Shown here one piece after another: positions 6,752-23,470 of a DNA stretch of 39,038 nucleotides (the stretch's first letter is position 1; the number at the start of each line of letters is the position of its first letter). The notes under the pieces were generated by a model. The model had not been told where the DNA came from. It saw only the letters and a program-made list of their open reading frames with translations, and searched no databases. The stretch is from Pseudomonadota bacterium (GTDB lineage: Bacteria > Pseudomonadota > Gammaproteobacteria > Xanthomonadales > Ahniellaceae): contig JAKJFE010000011.1 in the NCBI GenBank assembly GCA_022705045.1, forward strand, positions 1 through 39,038, given 5' to 3'. A program made the position numbers and the translations under genes.

Positions 6752-8851
<2,100 letters not shown>

Positions 8852-8878
8852 TCCCCGAGACATCGCCAGCTCGACAAG

Positions 8879-8901
8879 AAACGCGCTTCGGCGCGTTTTT
8901 T
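8879..8901 (+). terminator. Intrinsic terminator of rpsO-pnp
   Basis: An 8-bp stem, 8879-8886 (AAACGCGC) with 8891-8898 (GCGCGTTT), closes on a TTCG loop and runs into six T residues (8896-8901). It cleanly separates pnp from the deo operon. Confidence 0.92.
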
Positions 8902-8924
8902 GTTGGGCCATTGATCCGCGTCAA

Positions 8925-8937
8925 CGTCGTGACGACG
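8925..8937. promoter_or_regulatory. 13-bp palindrome, possible deo operator
   Basis: CGTCGT at 8925-8930 and ACGACG at 8932-8937 form a perfect inverted repeat around one base, 20 bases upstream of the deoC start in the 56-base gap after the pnp terminator. Its position suits an operator over the promoter or start region of the deo operon. The regulator is unknown; no repressor gene is in the window. Confidence 0.4.
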
Positions 8938-8957
8938 CAGTCGACTATCGTGTCGCC

Positions 8958-9728
8958 ATGGACACGACCACCCGAACCGCATTGCGCGCGCTGGCCGCGC
9001 TGGACCTGACCAGCCTCAATGAGGGCGACACGCCGGATGACATCGCGGCCCTGTGCGCGAGGGCGCGTACATCCCACGGTGTTACTGCGGCGGTCTGCGT
9101 CTATCCCGAGCATGTGACCACGGCGCGCCGTCTGCTTGGCGGCGATGGTGGCTCAGTGGTTCGGGTCGCGACGGTGGTGAATTTCCCGGACGGTGCGGCC
9201 GATCCGGCACGCGCCGAGCGCGAGACGCGTCGCGCCATCGCGGCCGGTGCCGAAGAAATCGATGTGGTGTTCCCTTGGCGGGCATTGATCGCGGGCGATG
9301 GCGCGGTCGGTGCGCGTGTGGTGTCGGACTGCAAGGCCGTGCTGCCGCCCGGTACCCTGTTGAAGGTCATCCTCGAAACCGGCGAACTGAAGGACACGGG
9401 CCTGATCCGTCGCGCATCCGATATCGCGCTTGCGCATGGGGCCGATTTCCTCAAGACCTCGACCGGCAAGGTGCCGGTCAATGCGACGCCTGACGCGGCC
9501 TGCGTGATGCTGCAGGCCATCCTCGACGCGAAATCGGGAAGCGGTCTCAAGGTCGCGGGCGGCGTGCGTCGCGTTGCCGACGCGGCCGTCTATTTCGATC
9601 TGGTCGATACGATGATGGGCCCGGACTGGGCCACGCCGGCGCGGTTCCGCATCGGTGCCAGCGGCTTGCTCGACGACATCCTCGCGGTGCTGTCCGGCAA
9701 AACAGCCGCGGGCGGTTCGGGCTACTGA
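8958..9728 (+). CDS. deoC: Deoxyribose-phosphate aldolase
   Basis: DeoC splits 2-deoxyribose 5-phosphate into glyceraldehyde 3-phosphate and acetaldehyde, the last step of deoxynucleoside catabolism. The 256-residue class I aldolase has the Schiff-base Lys166 in KTSTGK, the relay residues Asp102 (EIDVVFPWRAL) and Lys198 (LKVAGG), and even the C-terminal Tyr256 (GSGY) that closes the active site in the E. coli enzyme. ATG 8958 fits the family length; the frame is open further upstream but runs into pnp. First gene of deoCABD, one base from deoA. Confidence 0.96.
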   Translation: MDTTTRTALRALAALDLTSLNEGDTPDDIAALCARARTSHGVTAAVCVYPEHVTTARRLLGGDGGSVVRVATVVNFPDGAADPARAERETRRAIAAGAEEIDVVFPWRALIAGDGAVGARVVSDCKAVLPPGTLLKVILETGELKDTGLIRRASDIALAHGADFLKTSTGKVPVNATPDAACVMLQAILDAKSGSGLKVAGGVRRVADAAVYFDLVDTMMGPDWATPARFRIGASGLLDDILAVLSGKTAAGGSGY

Positions 9729-18693: not shown

Positions 18694-19503
18694 ATGAACT
18701 TGCCGTCGACCGACTTGCGCGTTTCCCTGGTCCAGGCCGCGACGCATTGGCACGACGCCAAGGCCAATCGCGTGATGTATGGCGACCTGGTTCGCCCGCT
18801 CGCGGGCAGCACCGATCTGGTCGTGCTGCCGGAGACCTTCACCAGCGGCTTCACCAACGACACCTTGACGAGTGCCGAGACCATGGACGGCGTGACCGTT
18901 CGCTGGATGGGCGCACTCGCTTCCGAAGTGAACGCGGTCGTGACCGGCTCGGTCGTGATCCGCGACGGTGACCGTTTCATCAACCGACTGGTCTGGATGC
19001 GGCCGGATGAAAGTTTCGCGGTGTACGACAAACGCCATCTGTTCCGCATGGCCAACGAACACGAGCGTTATGCCGGCGGTGACGCGCGCCTCGTGGTCGA
19101 GTTGAACGGTTGGCGTGTCTGTCCGATGGTCTGTTACGACCTGCGTTTTCCGGTGTTCATGCGCAACACGATGCGCGCTGAACTCGGGCGCATGGACTAC
19201 GACCTGCTGCTGTTCGTCGCCAACTGGCCGGCGCCGCGGCGAGGGCCATGGCGCACCTTGTTGCGTGCACGCGCCATCGAGAACCTGTGTTATTCGGTCG
19301 GCGTCAATCGCGTCGGCAGCGATGGCAATGGTCTGAACTATGCGGGCGACAGTGCAGCGATCGACTTCCTCGGCGAAGCCCTGGTCGACCTCGACGAACG
19401 CGCGCAGGTCGTGACGACGACGTTGTCGGCGGCGGCGCTGAATACGCATCGCGAACGCTTCCCGGCCTGGCGCGACGCCGACGCTTTCACGCTGCAGGGC
19501 TGA
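18694..19503 (+). CDS. Omega-amidase, carbon-nitrogen hydrolase (YafV/Nit2 type)
   Basis: A 269-residue nitrilase-superfamily amidase with the full catalytic triad: Glu47 (LPETF), Lys113 (YDKRHLF) and Cys147 (CYDLRFP). The context around the Cys (MVCYDLRFPVF) and the downstream NWPAPRRGPWRTLLRARAIE block match the YafV/Nit2 omega-amidases, which hydrolyse 2-oxoglutaramate and 2-oxosuccinamate to ammonia and the dicarboxylic 2-oxo acid. It follows the aminotransferase by 4 bases. Its last 17 bases overlap the 3' end of the convergent hydrolase gene. Confidence 0.92.
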   Translation: MNLPSTDLRVSLVQAATHWHDAKANRVMYGDLVRPLAGSTDLVVLPETFTSGFTNDTLTSAETMDGVTVRWMGALASEVNAVVTGSVVIRDGDRFINRLVWMRPDESFAVYDKRHLFRMANEHERYAGGDARLVVELNGWRVCPMVCYDLRFPVFMRNTMRAELGRMDYDLLLFVANWPAPRRGPWRTLLRARAIENLCYSVGVNRVGSDGNGLNYAGDSAAIDFLGEALVDLDERAQVVTTTLSAAALNTHRERFPAWRDADAFTLQG

Positions 19504-20422
19504 TCGCACCGATCCGGCCCCAGAAGTGGCGCAGCGACGCGCAGACGCGTCCGGGTGCCTCGACTTGCGGATAGTGGCCGATGTCATCGAGCCAGACGAC
19601 ATCGGCCTCGCGGATCAATTCGCGATACCGCGCGACCATGTGCGCGCCCGAGACGGGATCAAGTGCGCCGTTGATCAATCGCATCGGGATCGTCGTGCCG
19701 GTCAAGGCGCCGACCCAACGTTCGCGCTGGCGCCTGCGCTCCACCAGGTAGCGCATCAGCCGGTGCGCGATGCGTTGCCCGTCCTGCGCGGTGATCAGTG
19801 CCCAGAAGGCATCGATTTCGTTCGCATCCGGGCGCGTGTTCGGGCCGAAGATCGCCGCAAAACTGCGTGCGAAGCTTCGTCGGTTCAACAGCTTCGCGAG
19901 CAGTGGACCGAGCGGTGTCAGCAGCAGCCGCTGGATCAGGCGCGGTCGATGCGATTCCGGGAACAGGCCGCCATTGAGGAACACGACGGAGTCGACGCGT
20001 TTGGGCTGGCCGAGTGCCGCCTGTTCACGATCACGCGCGAGCAGTTCCTGCGCCACCGTCACGCCGTAGTCGTGGGCGAGCACATGCATTCGTTCGATCC
20101 CGAGTTGGGAACGCCAGTGATCGATCAGGTCGGCCTGACCCGCGATCGTGTAGTCATGCGCAGCGGGCTTGTCCGAAAAGCCGAAGCCGAGCAGGTCCGG
20201 TGCCAACAGGTTGAAGTCGCGCGCCAGCTCGGCCCACAGCGGATGCCAGTCGAGCGATGCCGTCGGAAATCCGTGGATCAGCAGTAGCCAGGGGCGGTCG
20301 CCCGGTGGATTCAGTGCGATCTGGGCGAACACCTTGTGACCAGCGAAGACGCTGTGTCGCCCTTGCAGTCGCCAATCGCGAAGGGCGTCGATATCGATGC
20401 GGGGAAACGACGCCGCGTTCAT
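19487..20422 (-). CDS. Alpha/beta hydrolase resembling vertebrate MEST/PEG1
   Basis: A 311-residue cytoplasmic alpha/beta hydrolase. The oxyanion motif LIHGFPTASLDW is followed by DLLGFGFSDKP, and the nucleophile elbow AHDYGVTVAQELL has Asp118, not Ser, as in epoxide hydrolases and haloalkane dehalogenases. FLNGGLFPESHRPRL, the RRQRERWVGAL block, NGALDPVSG (acid) and IGHYPQVE (base) follow in the same order and wording as in the mammalian imprinted protein MEST. Substrate unknown. Its ATG overlaps the stop of the upstream M50 protease gene (ATGA), so the two are translationally coupled; its 3' end overlaps the omega-amidase gene by 17 bases. Confidence 0.88.
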   Translation of the reverse strand: MNAASFPRIDIDALRDWRLQGRHSVFAGHKVFAQIALNPPGDRPWLLLIHGFPTASLDWHPLWAELARDFNLLAPDLLGFGFSDKPAAHDYTIAGQADLIDHWRSQLGIERMHVLAHDYGVTVAQELLARDREQAALGQPKRVDSVVFLNGGLFPESHRPRLIQRLLLTPLGPLLAKLLNRRSFARSFAAIFGPNTRPDANEIDAFWALITAQDGQRIAHRLMRYLVERRRQRERWVGALTGTTIPMRLINGALDPVSGAHMVARYRELIREADVVWLDDIGHYPQVEAPGRVCASLRHFWGRIGAISPAA

Positions 20423-21141
20423 CCGGTGCGGAGCGCGCCGAGCTGTTCGTGTACGCCGCTGCTCATCATCGCGAGGAAGACCGCGAGTCCGAGATAGGCG
20501 GCGCCGTACTGCAATTTCACTTCCAGTGGCTGCTCGTAGTAGCCGGCAGGCACCGTGTCATGCCAGGTGCCGCGCCATACCGACCAGATGCTCGGCAGCG
20601 CCATGATCAGGACCAGGAACAGCATCGGGCTCGGCCTCACGAACAGCAGGGCGCCGAGGATGGGCGCCCCGACCAGCCAGATCTTCGGTGACAGGATGCC
20701 GACGATGCGACCGCCGTCGAGCGGATTGATCGGCAGCAGGTTCCACAGGTTCAGCATGAATCCGGAGTAGGCCAGCGCCATCAGCAGCGCACTGCCGGTA
20801 TCGCGTGCGGCGTAGTAGCAGACCAGCGCGCCGGCCGTGCCCGCGACCGGACCTGCCAGGGCGATCTTCGCCTCCACGCGGGCATCCATCGGCTGCTCCT
20901 TGAGTTCGATCCAGGCCCCGACGAAGGGAATGAAGGTCGGCGCACCCACGTTCAGGCCGGCGCGTTTCGCACTCAGGTAGTGGCCGAGTTCGTGCACGAA
21001 GATCAGCAGCACAAAGCCGACCGCGTACCGCCATCCGAACAGCAGGGCATAGGCGAACACCGAAATGATCATGGTGCCGCCGGTTTTCAGGATCGGTCCG
21101 AGCTTGGCGAAGTTCAGGAGCAACAGCAGGGTTTTCAGCAT
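20419..21141 (-). CDS. Site-2 protease family (M50) membrane metalloprotease
   Basis: A 240-residue integral membrane protein with about five or six hydrophobic segments. The zinc motif HELGH is at residues 50-54 in an early membrane segment and the third ligand is Asp142 in NPLDGG, as in M50 peptidases. No PDZ or CBS domain is present, so it is a minimal S2P-like protease rather than RseP; the target is unknown. It is the first gene of a minus-strand couplet with the MEST-like hydrolase (4-base overlap), and diverges from the oligopeptidase gene across 91 bases. Confidence 0.9.
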   Translation of the reverse strand: MLKTLLLLLNFAKLGPILKTGGTMIISVFAYALLFGWRYAVGFVLLIFVHELGHYLSAKRAGLNVGAPTFIPFVGAWIELKEQPMDARVEAKIALAGPVAGTAGALVCYYAARDTGSALLMALAYSGFMLNLWNLLPINPLDGGRIVGILSPKIWLVGAPILGALLFVRPSPMLFLVLIMALPSIWSVWRGTWHDTVPAGYYEQPLEVKLQYGAAYLGLAVFLAMMSSGVHEQLGALRTG

Positions 21142-21232: not shown

Positions 21233-23470
21233 ATGCTGCTCAAGCGCCTTCTGCTGCCGTCGATCGTCCTGATCGCCGCCTGTACCCACACGACTCGCGA
21301 CATGACCCCAGAATCCCCCGCGTCCGCCGTCAACACGCCGCAACCGCCCGTGGCCAAGCAGGTGCCCTACACGGTGACCTCGCCGAATGGCGACCGCGTC
21401 GACCCCTACTACTGGTTGCGCGACGACACTCGCAGCAAGCCGGAAGTGATCGATTACCTCACTGCCGAGAACAACTACACGACGGCGATGCTGGCGCACA
21501 CGCAGGCATCGAAGGACCTGTTGTTCAAGGAGATGGTTGGCCGCATCCAGCAGGACGACAGTTCGGTACCGTACCTGAAGAACGGCTGGTGGTTGTACAC
21601 GCGCTTCGAGCAGGGCAAGGAATATCCGATCCATGCACGCAAGCGTGGTTCGCTCGATGCGCCCGAAGAAGTGCTGCTCGATGCCAACTTGCTGGGCGCC
21701 GGCAAGGGCTTCTACCAGATCGGGTTCTGGCAACCGAGTCCGGACGGCGCGCAACTCGTCTATGCCGAGGACTTGAGCGGTCGCCGTCAGTACGTGCTGC
21801 GCTTCAAGAATCTGCAGACCGGACAGCTGTGGCCGGAATCGATCGCGAATGTCGAAGCGAACACAGTCTGGGCCAACGACAACCGCACCGTGCTGTACAT
21901 CGAGAAAAACCCGCAGACCCTGCTCGGCTTCCGTGTGCGCAAGCATGTGCTCGGTACTGATCCGGCGAACGATCCGGTCGTCTACGAGGAAAAGGACAGT
22001 ACCTACTACATGGGCATCGGCAAGAGCCGCAGCGACCGCTTCCTGTGGATCGGTCTGAACAGCACGGTCGCGACCGAGTGGCGTTACGCCGATGCCAACG
22101 ATCCGAACCTCGTGTTCAAGACCGTGCTGCCGCGCGAGCGCGATCACGAGTACCAGGTGCAGGATCACGGCGACGAGTTCTACATCCTGACCAACTGGCA
22201 GGCGCGCAATTTCCGCATCATGCGGGCGCCCATCGCGAAGGCGGGCGACCGCGCGAACTGGGTGGAATGGGTGGCGCATCGCGATGACGCGTTGCTGTCG
22301 TCGATGACGGTGCTGCGCGATCATGTCGCCATCAACGAACGGTCGGGCGGTCTTCCGAAGATCCGCGTCAAGACGATCGCGGACGGCCACTCGGAACTGC
22401 TCGCATTCGACGAGCCGGCCTACAGTGCGTTCACCGGCGCGAATGCCGAGTACGACACCGCGACATTGCGCATCGTCTACACCTCGCCGCAGACGCCGGC
22501 GTCGACCTACGACGTCGACCTCAAGACCGGTACGCGCACGTTGCTGAAACGCGAAACCGTGCTCGGCGGATTCGACCGCGACAACTACGTCACCGAGTTC
22601 CGTTTCGCCCCGGCCCGCGACGGCGCGCAGGTGCCGGTGACCCTGCTGTATCGCAAGGGCCTGAAGCGCGACGGCAGCGCCGCGCTGTACCAGTATGGCT
22701 ACGGCTCCTACGGCGCGGCCATGAGCCCGGCCTTCAACGACAAGGTGCTGTCCCTGGTCGACCGCGGCGTCGTCTATGCCATCGCGCACATCCGTGGCGG
22801 CGAGGAAATGGGGCGTGCCTGGTACGAATCCGGTCGTCAGCTGCAGAAGAAGAACACCTTCAACGACTTCATCGACGTCACCGATTTCCTGGTGCGCGAA
22901 GGTTACGCGGCGAAGAATCGCGTGGTCGCCCAAGGCGGCAGCGCCGGCGGCCTGCTGATGGGTGCAGTCGCGAACATGGCACCGGACCGCTATCGCGCCA
23001 TCGTCGCCGACGTGCCCTTCGTCGACGTGGTCACGACCATGCTCGACGAATCCATCCCGCTGACGACCAACGAGTTCGACGAGTGGGGCAATCCGAAGCA
23101 GAAGGTCTTCTACGACTACATGCTGTCGTATTCGCCTTATGACAACGTCGCGGCGCAGGACTATCCGGCGATGCTGGTGACCACTGGCCTGCACGACAGC
23201 CAGGTGCAGTATTTCGAACCGGCGAAGTGGGTGGCCAAGCTGCGTGCGACCAAGACGGGCACGTCGCCGCTGCTGTTGAAGACGAACATGGAAGCCGGCC
23301 ACGGCGGCAAGTCCGGTCGCTTCCGTCGTCTGGAAGAAGTCGCGCTGGCCTATGCGTTCTTCCTCGATCAGCTCGGCATCGCGGTGGAATCCGCTGCCGG
23401 CGACGGTTTCGAAGGCGGCAAGGATTCCGCGGACACCGCAGACGGTTTCGAGGCCAAACATGCGCGCTAA
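21233..23470 (+). CDS. Exported S9A oligopeptidase (oligopeptidase B-like lipoprotein)
   Basis: A 745-residue serine peptidase of the prolyl oligopeptidase family. The start MLLKRLLLPSIVLIAAC has a lipobox (IAAC, Cys17), so it should be a lipoprotein, with Thr at +2. The beta-propeller follows (DPYYWLRDD near 60), then the alpha/beta hydrolase domain with Ser570 in GGSAGG, Asp655 in HDSQV and His690 in EAGHGG. The strongest similarity is to oligopeptidase B, which cuts after basic residues in short peptides. A TAGAAT -10-like hexamer lies at 21203-21208 without a clear -35. Its last 11 bases overlap lptM. Confidence 0.92.
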   Translation: MLLKRLLLPSIVLIAACTHTTRDMTPESPASAVNTPQPPVAKQVPYTVTSPNGDRVDPYYWLRDDTRSKPEVIDYLTAENNYTTAMLAHTQASKDLLFKEMVGRIQQDDSSVPYLKNGWWLYTRFEQGKEYPIHARKRGSLDAPEEVLLDANLLGAGKGFYQIGFWQPSPDGAQLVYAEDLSGRRQYVLRFKNLQTGQLWPESIANVEANTVWANDNRTVLYIEKNPQTLLGFRVRKHVLGTDPANDPVVYEEKDSTYYMGIGKSRSDRFLWIGLNSTVATEWRYADANDPNLVFKTVLPRERDHEYQVQDHGDEFYILTNWQARNFRIMRAPIAKAGDRANWVEWVAHRDDALLSSMTVLRDHVAINERSGGLPKIRVKTIADGHSELLAFDEPAYSAFTGANAEYDTATLRIVYTSPQTPASTYDVDLKTGTRTLLKRETVLGGFDRDNYVTEFRFAPARDGAQVPVTLLYRKGLKRDGSAALYQYGYGSYGAAMSPAFNDKVLSLVDRGVVYAIAHIRGGEEMGRAWYESGRQLQKKNTFNDFIDVTDFLVREGYAAKNRVVAQGGSAGGLLMGAVANMAPDRYRAIVADVPFVDVVTTMLDESIPLTTNEFDEWGNPKQKVFYDYMLSYSPYDNVAAQDYPAMLVTTGLHDSQVQYFEPAKWVAKLRATKTGTSPLLLKTNMEAGHGGKSGRFRRLEEVALAYAFFLDQLGIAVESAAGDGFEGGKDSADTADGFEAKHAR

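Follow-up and report, generated by a model that had tools for sequence, protein, structure and literature searches.

Organization of the locus

The window analysed here, a stretch of 39,038 nucleotides (GenBank assembly GCA_022705045.1, contig JAKJFE010000011.1), carries two adjoining genes on the minus strand. The first encodes a small M50 (site-2-protease-type) membrane protease of 240 aa (ORF at 20419..21141; Pfam PF02163), and downstream of it lies the gene for an alpha/beta hydrolase of 311 aa (ORF at 19487..20422; Pfam PF00561/PF12697) that is MEST-like by its conserved columns. The two reading frames share the sequence ATGA (20419..20422, minus strand), in which TGA is the stop codon of the M50 gene and ATG the start codon of the hydrolase gene. 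Both ORFs and their junction lie where the first-pass annotation had placed them. A 4-base overlap between bacterial genes on the same strand is ordinary in itself. The pair is enclosed by two genes on the plus strand, recognized by Pfam and synteny: a nitrilase-family gene (18694..19503; PF00795), which is convergent to the hydrolase gene and overlaps its 3' end by 17 bases, and a prolyl oligopeptidase-family gene (21233..23470; PF02897/PF00326), which diverges from the M50 gene. The G+C content is even over the six genes measured (0.63-0.66).

A Pfam scan at E 0.001 assigned Abhydrolase_1/6 alone to the hydrolase and Peptidase_M50 alone (58 bits vs. a cut-off of 27.2) to its neighbour; at this threshold the M50 protein showed neither a PDZ nor a CBS domain, in keeping with its earlier description as a minimal protease. 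The M50 protein contains HELGH at residues 50-54 and NPLDG at residues 139-143 as well as hydrophobic stretches, and with HExxH, NPxDG and a Pfam M50 score above cut-off it falls among the M50 site-2 proteases. Its closest solved sequences are MJ0392 and SpoIVFB.

Similarity of the hydrolase to MEST

The hydrolase had been likened to the vertebrate imprinted protein MEST on the wording of six blocks (GFPTASLDW, LLGFGFSDKP, HDYG, NGGLFPESHRP, RWVGAL and HYPQVE), all of which were found in its translation, and the likeness was borne out by pairwise comparison, conserved columns and trees. The eukaryotic side of these comparisons is one provisional human MEST sequence, not a database copy, which was checked by its length (335 residues) and by the S145-H146-D147 numbering given in the available part of PMC5481029. 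The window hydrolase is 41% identical to this provisional sequence over 285 aa (pairwise E 1e-67). Defining a conserved column as one with the same residue in at least 44 of the 49 bacterial hydrolase-family members (window included), the provisional MEST shares the residue in 44 of 46 such columns, and the blocks NGG-(L/I)FPE-x-HRP, RWVGAL and HYPQ-x-E are common to it and the window hydrolase. The best sequence match of the window hydrolase in the PDB reached 56 bits. Judged from pairwise comparison and trees with the one provisional MEST, no other alpha/beta hydrolases come as near to the window hydrolase in full-length similarity as MEST does, and on this sequence evidence the likeness is very probably real.

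Our literature searches found no paper that takes the bacterial relatives of MEST as its subject. A bacterial likeness of MEST as such is already in print, since the available part of PMC5481029 notes that MEST resembles epoxide hydrolases of M. tuberculosis. A scan of genome contigs with the hydrolase gave three loci, from Pseudomonas or Stutzerimonas. Plasmid transfer of the hydrolase was considered and rejected, as none of 72,556 plasmid records matched it at E 1e-20. Relaxing the threshold to 1e-4 brought in 669 records, of which three aligned over 80% or more of the query. Among the 60 plasmid matches listed, coverage was 91% (at 29% identity) for one and no more than 50% for the remaining 59.

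Phylogeny

The 49 bacterial rows came from searches of Pseudomonadota and from one named scan that gave only Pseudomonas and Stutzerimonas, with start codons of the relatives chosen by script. A quick tree was built from 69 rows and a careful one from 65, after OUT_L078, PLAS_L109 and PDB 9c2g, which had long branches in the quick tree, had been dropped together with PLAS_L110; the outgroups attach to the tree by long branches. In the quick tree the 49 bacterial members and the provisional MEST fall on one side of a branch with SH-aLRT 93, and MEST groups with a 38-member subgroup that contains the window hydrolase (support 98). The careful tree recovers the same subgroup with MEST (99/99) and sets apart ten NF002043 dehalogenases of the order together with five plasmid hydrolases (98/98). 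Forcing the 49 bacterial rows together without MEST cost 11.1 log-likelihood units, and in the AU test a position of MEST outside the bacterial family was not rejected (p-AU 0.299). The data thus favour, without establishing, a position of MEST nested among the bacterial members.

A firm placement in a known dehalogenase or epoxide hydrolase clade, which the first-pass annotation had named as contrary to its reading, did not occur with respect to the dehalogenases; epoxide hydrolases were represented by the single partial row 9c2g, which stood on a long branch apart from the family in the quick tree. The hydrolases of the window and of three further genomes of its taxonomic family (G025, G015 and G003) cluster with SH-aLRT 96 in the quick tree and 87/96 in the careful one, a grouping that fits vertical descent of the gene.

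Eleven bacterial members (L029, L030, L032, L033, L028, L031 and L070-L074) are divergent, being about 32-38% identical to the window hydrolase, and seven of them carry Met and not Tyr beside the nucleophile.

Active-site residues and predicted chemistry

Residues H50, G51, P53, D255 and H283 of the window hydrolase are present in 49 of 49 members and are identical in the provisional MEST. The Asp of HDYG, D118, occurs in 48 of the 49 and in MEST, and Y225 in 47 of the 49, again with the same letter in MEST; N150, Q164, W207 and R229 are invariant in the family. Position 119, beside the nucleophile, is Y in 36 members, M in 7, L in 5, F in 1 and W in none of the 49. With HGFP at residues 50-53, the protein combines an HGxP motif with aromatic x, an Asp nucleophile and an Asp-His pair, which are the motifs of the epoxide hydrolase class. 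The PDB entries 9c2g and 4inz, both epoxide hydrolases, are among its top profile matches. In one relative, L103:1465-2424 (G526), the nucleophile region reads LAHAYG, with Ala replacing the Asp, and this protein is possibly inactive or reassigned.

From these conserved positions and the known chemistry of epoxide hydrolases and dehalogenases, a covalent ester would form by attack of D118 on the substrate, HGFP would supply the oxyanion site, and H283, assisted by D255, would activate the water that releases the ester. Probable cap-lining residues are Y225, N150, Q164, W207 and R229. An AlphaFold2 model of the hydrolase, made from four sequences, has a mean pLDDT of 71, and in its cap blocks of residues 151-230 are at pLDDT 37-57; because the cap is poorly modelled, the roles given to its residues are drawn from sequence alone. 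In a structure search of the PDB, haloalkane dehalogenases ranked above epoxide hydrolases, at a low TM of about 0.5-0.6. With a poor cap and with matches that are mainly dehalogenases at this level, the model does not decide the substrate. Y225, found in nearly all members and assigned to the poorly modelled cap, is a candidate ring-polarising tyrosine, and the likeliest substrate would be a small hydrophobic electrophile, either an epoxide or some other compound of this kind. For MEST itself, the available part of PMC5481029 describes an epoxide-coordinating tyrosine that is conserved, and gives epoxide hydrolase activity as one of two options.

The other option offered there is that MEST would be an esterase, lipase or acyltransferase; applied to the whole MEST-like family, this reading would replace that of an epoxide-type hydrolase. 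For MEST it is drawn from a 'serine-histidine-aspartate' run at residues 145-147, described in that part of the paper as a catalytic triad. The serine of this run is Ala in 42 and Ser in 1 of the 49 bacterial members, whereas the next-but-one residue is Asp in 48, so that the letters conserved in bacterial relatives are His and Asp and the serine is not among them. We infer from this conservation that the published Ser-His-Asp triad of MEST is wrong. Folds with an Asp nucleophile can be promiscuous, a point in favour of this option, and we regard an esterase-like activity as possible but rather unlikely.

Dehalogenases carry a halide-binding Trp next to the nucleophile, and HLD-II enzymes carry an Asn in the halide site. 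A haloalkane dehalogenase would agree with the Asp nucleophile of the hydrolase and with the presence of dehalogenases among the solved proteins that match it best in sequence and structure. Against this, none of the 49 family members has Trp next to the nucleophile, HGFP places an aromatic residue where HLD-II enzymes have Asn, and the NCBIfam dehalogenase models score far under their cut-offs (65.8 of 241, 56.2 of 466 and 47.4 of 265 bits). An NF002043 dehalogenase was detected in 22 of 101 genomes of the order searched, 18 of which also match the hydrolase (17 without the weak match in G029), and the MEST-like members and the NF002043 dehalogenases separate in both trees. On three grounds, the lack of this Trp, the scores below NCBIfam cut-offs and the topology of the trees, we reject a dehalogenase identity as very improbable. 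In one genome (G059, C25:6693-7529 and 8091-8987) about 560 bases separate a MEST-like gene from an NF002043 dehalogenase gene of the same strand.

Genomic neighbours of the two genes

The first-pass annotation had treated the hydrolase and M50 genes as coupled, and had proposed that a lack of linkage in relatives, to be counted in Lysobacterales, would count against this. Ten genomes of the window's taxonomic family were sampled, three of them from its genus. The hydrolase was present in five of the ten (E 1e-15) and the M50 protein in three (E 1e-10), with both in the window genome alone; the other four hydrolase-bearing genomes lack this M50. One genome of the same genus (G041) has an aminotransferase-like gene, the nitrilase, the M50 gene and the prolyl oligopeptidase gene, with no hydrolase in between; its M50 protein is 88% identical to that of the window, and the stop codons of the M50 and nitrilase genes abut. 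In another member of the taxonomic family (G015) an aminotransferase-like gene and the nitrilase are followed by the hydrolase, and no match to the window's M50 was found in the genome.

Wider searches gave a similar picture. In the order, 49 of 151 genomes match the hydrolase (including weak matches of about 72 bits in G009 and G029 and partial ones in G055 and G122) and five an M50 relative; G000 and G141 have both, on different contigs in G141. In the phylum, the hydrolase was matched in 26 of 398 genomes (E 1e-25), an M50 relative in 23, and both in four. One of the four is the window genome; in the other three (G361, G385 and G473) the two genes are on separate contigs or at a distance of more than 100 kb. 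The paired searches of the order and of the phylum were each taken to cover the same genome set, their settings and handles agreeing. Among 74 distinct hydrolase-bearing genomes, no M50 gene was found beside the hydrolase except in the window's own, and a search of 90 hydrolase loci and the window with 23 M50 queries (E 1e-3) gave a nearby match in the window only. Flanks were read in 61 of the 74 genomes, the window genome included, where some loci overlap and some are cut by contig ends; the other 13 are all genomes of the order in which the whole-genome search gave no M50 relative. Where a flank is cut by a contig end, as upstream in G025, the whole-genome search alone speaks. Genes in the flanks come from a simple calling script that also yielded some antisense artefacts, and the names AAT, OYE, LigB and DapF were assigned by eye. 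Beyond small sets of close kin, no common neighbour of the hydrolase was seen in the loci of the order.

The proposed coupling did not hold up: the pair occurs in one of 74 hydrolase-bearing genomes, G041 keeps the M50 gene at the locus without the hydrolase, relatives show the absence of linkage that the annotation had itself named, and a conserved M50-hydrolase operon is rejected. In G003 the hydrolase gene shares 4 bases with a gene for a histidine kinase, which indicates that such overlaps come and go. A functional partnership of the two proteins restricted to this species, for instance with the hydrolase processing the lipid product of a protease-regulated membrane target, would agree with their ATGA overlap and co-orientation, but on the genomes sampled is very improbable given the M50 gene without hydrolase in the same genus, the four genomes of the taxonomic family with the hydrolase and without this M50, and the other recurrent neighbours that each gene has in other relatives. 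The M50 protein would be an independent small site-2-type protease, brought upstream of the hydrolase by local rearrangement; at this locus the genes may be transcribed together, but they probably have no function in common. Seen in one sampled genome only, the pairing says little about what either gene does.

A recurrent neighbour of the M50 gene is a gene for a DUF2167 protein. M50 relatives with 54% identity lie directly downstream of a DUF2167 gene in five of five loci, from three genomes of the phylum sample (G290, G467 and G218) and two Burkholderia replicons (L122, L123, L124, L179 and L180). In four of the five, the start codon of the M50 gene and the stop codon of the DUF2167 gene share bases (ATGA or GTGA); in L124 the two are close and a stop codon interrupts the DUF2167 frame. 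The Burkholderia genes were called by 33% identity to the DUF2167 protein of the window genome and not by Pfam scan. By eye, the DUF2167 proteins have hydrophobic tails. The link is one-sided, since among 29 DUF2167 loci besides that of the window genome M50 adjoins in three and not in 26. A strong DUF2167 gene also occurs in each of the three genomes of the window's taxonomic family that carry the M50, but on a different contig from it; in G003 a DUF2167 gene is present and the M50 absent. A literature search on DUF2167 gave a single genome announcement and nothing relevant to its pairing with M50.

The MEST-like gene has recurrent neighbours in what we call the Pseudomonas group, a label that rests on resemblance of the genomes to L039 and L041, two loci of named organisms. 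In 11 loci the MEST-like gene is preceded by one of the class II aldolase/adducin family, namely in that of P. mendocina (L039) and in those of 10 of the 25 non-window genomes in the hydrolase search of the phylum. With start codons as called by script, and with the last two aldolase residues assumed where the alignment fell short, the genes overlap by 4 bases in six loci and by 1 base in four, and in L092 they are separated by a gap of about 36 bases. A short-chain dehydrogenase (SDR) gene lies downstream in 14 loci, 13 of them distinct (L041 and L097 appear identical). The full set of aldolase-family, MEST-like and SDR genes is found in L039 (5207-8848), L079-L081, L083-L086 and L091, whereas L090, L093 and L094 have the dehydrogenase gene with no aldolase-family gene found in their flanks. 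A DUF1569 gene stands between the MEST-like and dehydrogenase genes in three of six loci inspected (L039 by Pfam, L081 and L083 by eye) and was not seen in the other three (L080, L084 and L094).

Implications

Taken together, we put the probability at about 0.7 that the hydrolase is a gammaproteobacterial MEST-like enzyme of the Asp-nucleophile, epoxide-hydrolase type, and that the M50 gene is an independent neighbour that probably shares no function with it. The interest of the finding lies in the bacterial MEST-like family and not in the window locus, where the M50 neighbour would have misled functional work. The imprinted MEST gene is linked in mice to the expansion of adipose tissue, and a 2025 paper (PMC12609188) still assigns it 'an unknown molecular function'. 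A bacterial family that shares its conserved residues occurs in culturable Pseudomonas, where the enzymes can be purified and the genes deleted. The chances seem evenly balanced that vertebrate MEST is an offshoot of this widespread proteobacterial family, in which case its nucleophile would be Asp147 and not a Ser145-His146-Asp147 triad. If so, the Pseudomonas sets of aldolase-family, MEST-like and dehydrogenase genes, with DUF1569 in some, could help to find the chemistry of MEST. Better leads than the pairing at the window locus are the aldolase-family neighbour of the Pseudomonas group for the MEST-like gene and DUF2167 for the M50 gene.

Comparison with known systems

The small M50 proteases MJ0392 and SpoIVFB share HExxH and NPLDG with the window's M50 protein, in which PDZ and CBS domains were not found; the protein differs from them in that its relatives at about 54% identity are linked to DUF2167. 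The haloalkane dehalogenases (NF002043, DbeA and DhmeA) have the fold and the Asp nucleophile in common with the window hydrolase, whose family differs from them in lacking Trp beside the nucleophile, the NF002043 members forming a separate clade. The Asp-nucleophile epoxide hydrolases (the isobutylene enzyme 9c2g and the soluble enzyme 4inz) have HG-aromatic-P, the Asp nucleophile and the Asp-His pair, all of which are also present in the hydrolase, although only one candidate cap tyrosine, and no second, was picked out in the latter. Vertebrate MEST/PEG1, in the provisional sequence, agrees with the window hydrolase in its catalytic letters, in 44 of 46 conserved columns and in 41% of residues over 285 aa, whereas it has 38 residues ahead of the matched region compared to 12 in the window hydrolase, and Ser before His-Asp where the bacterial members mostly have Ala.
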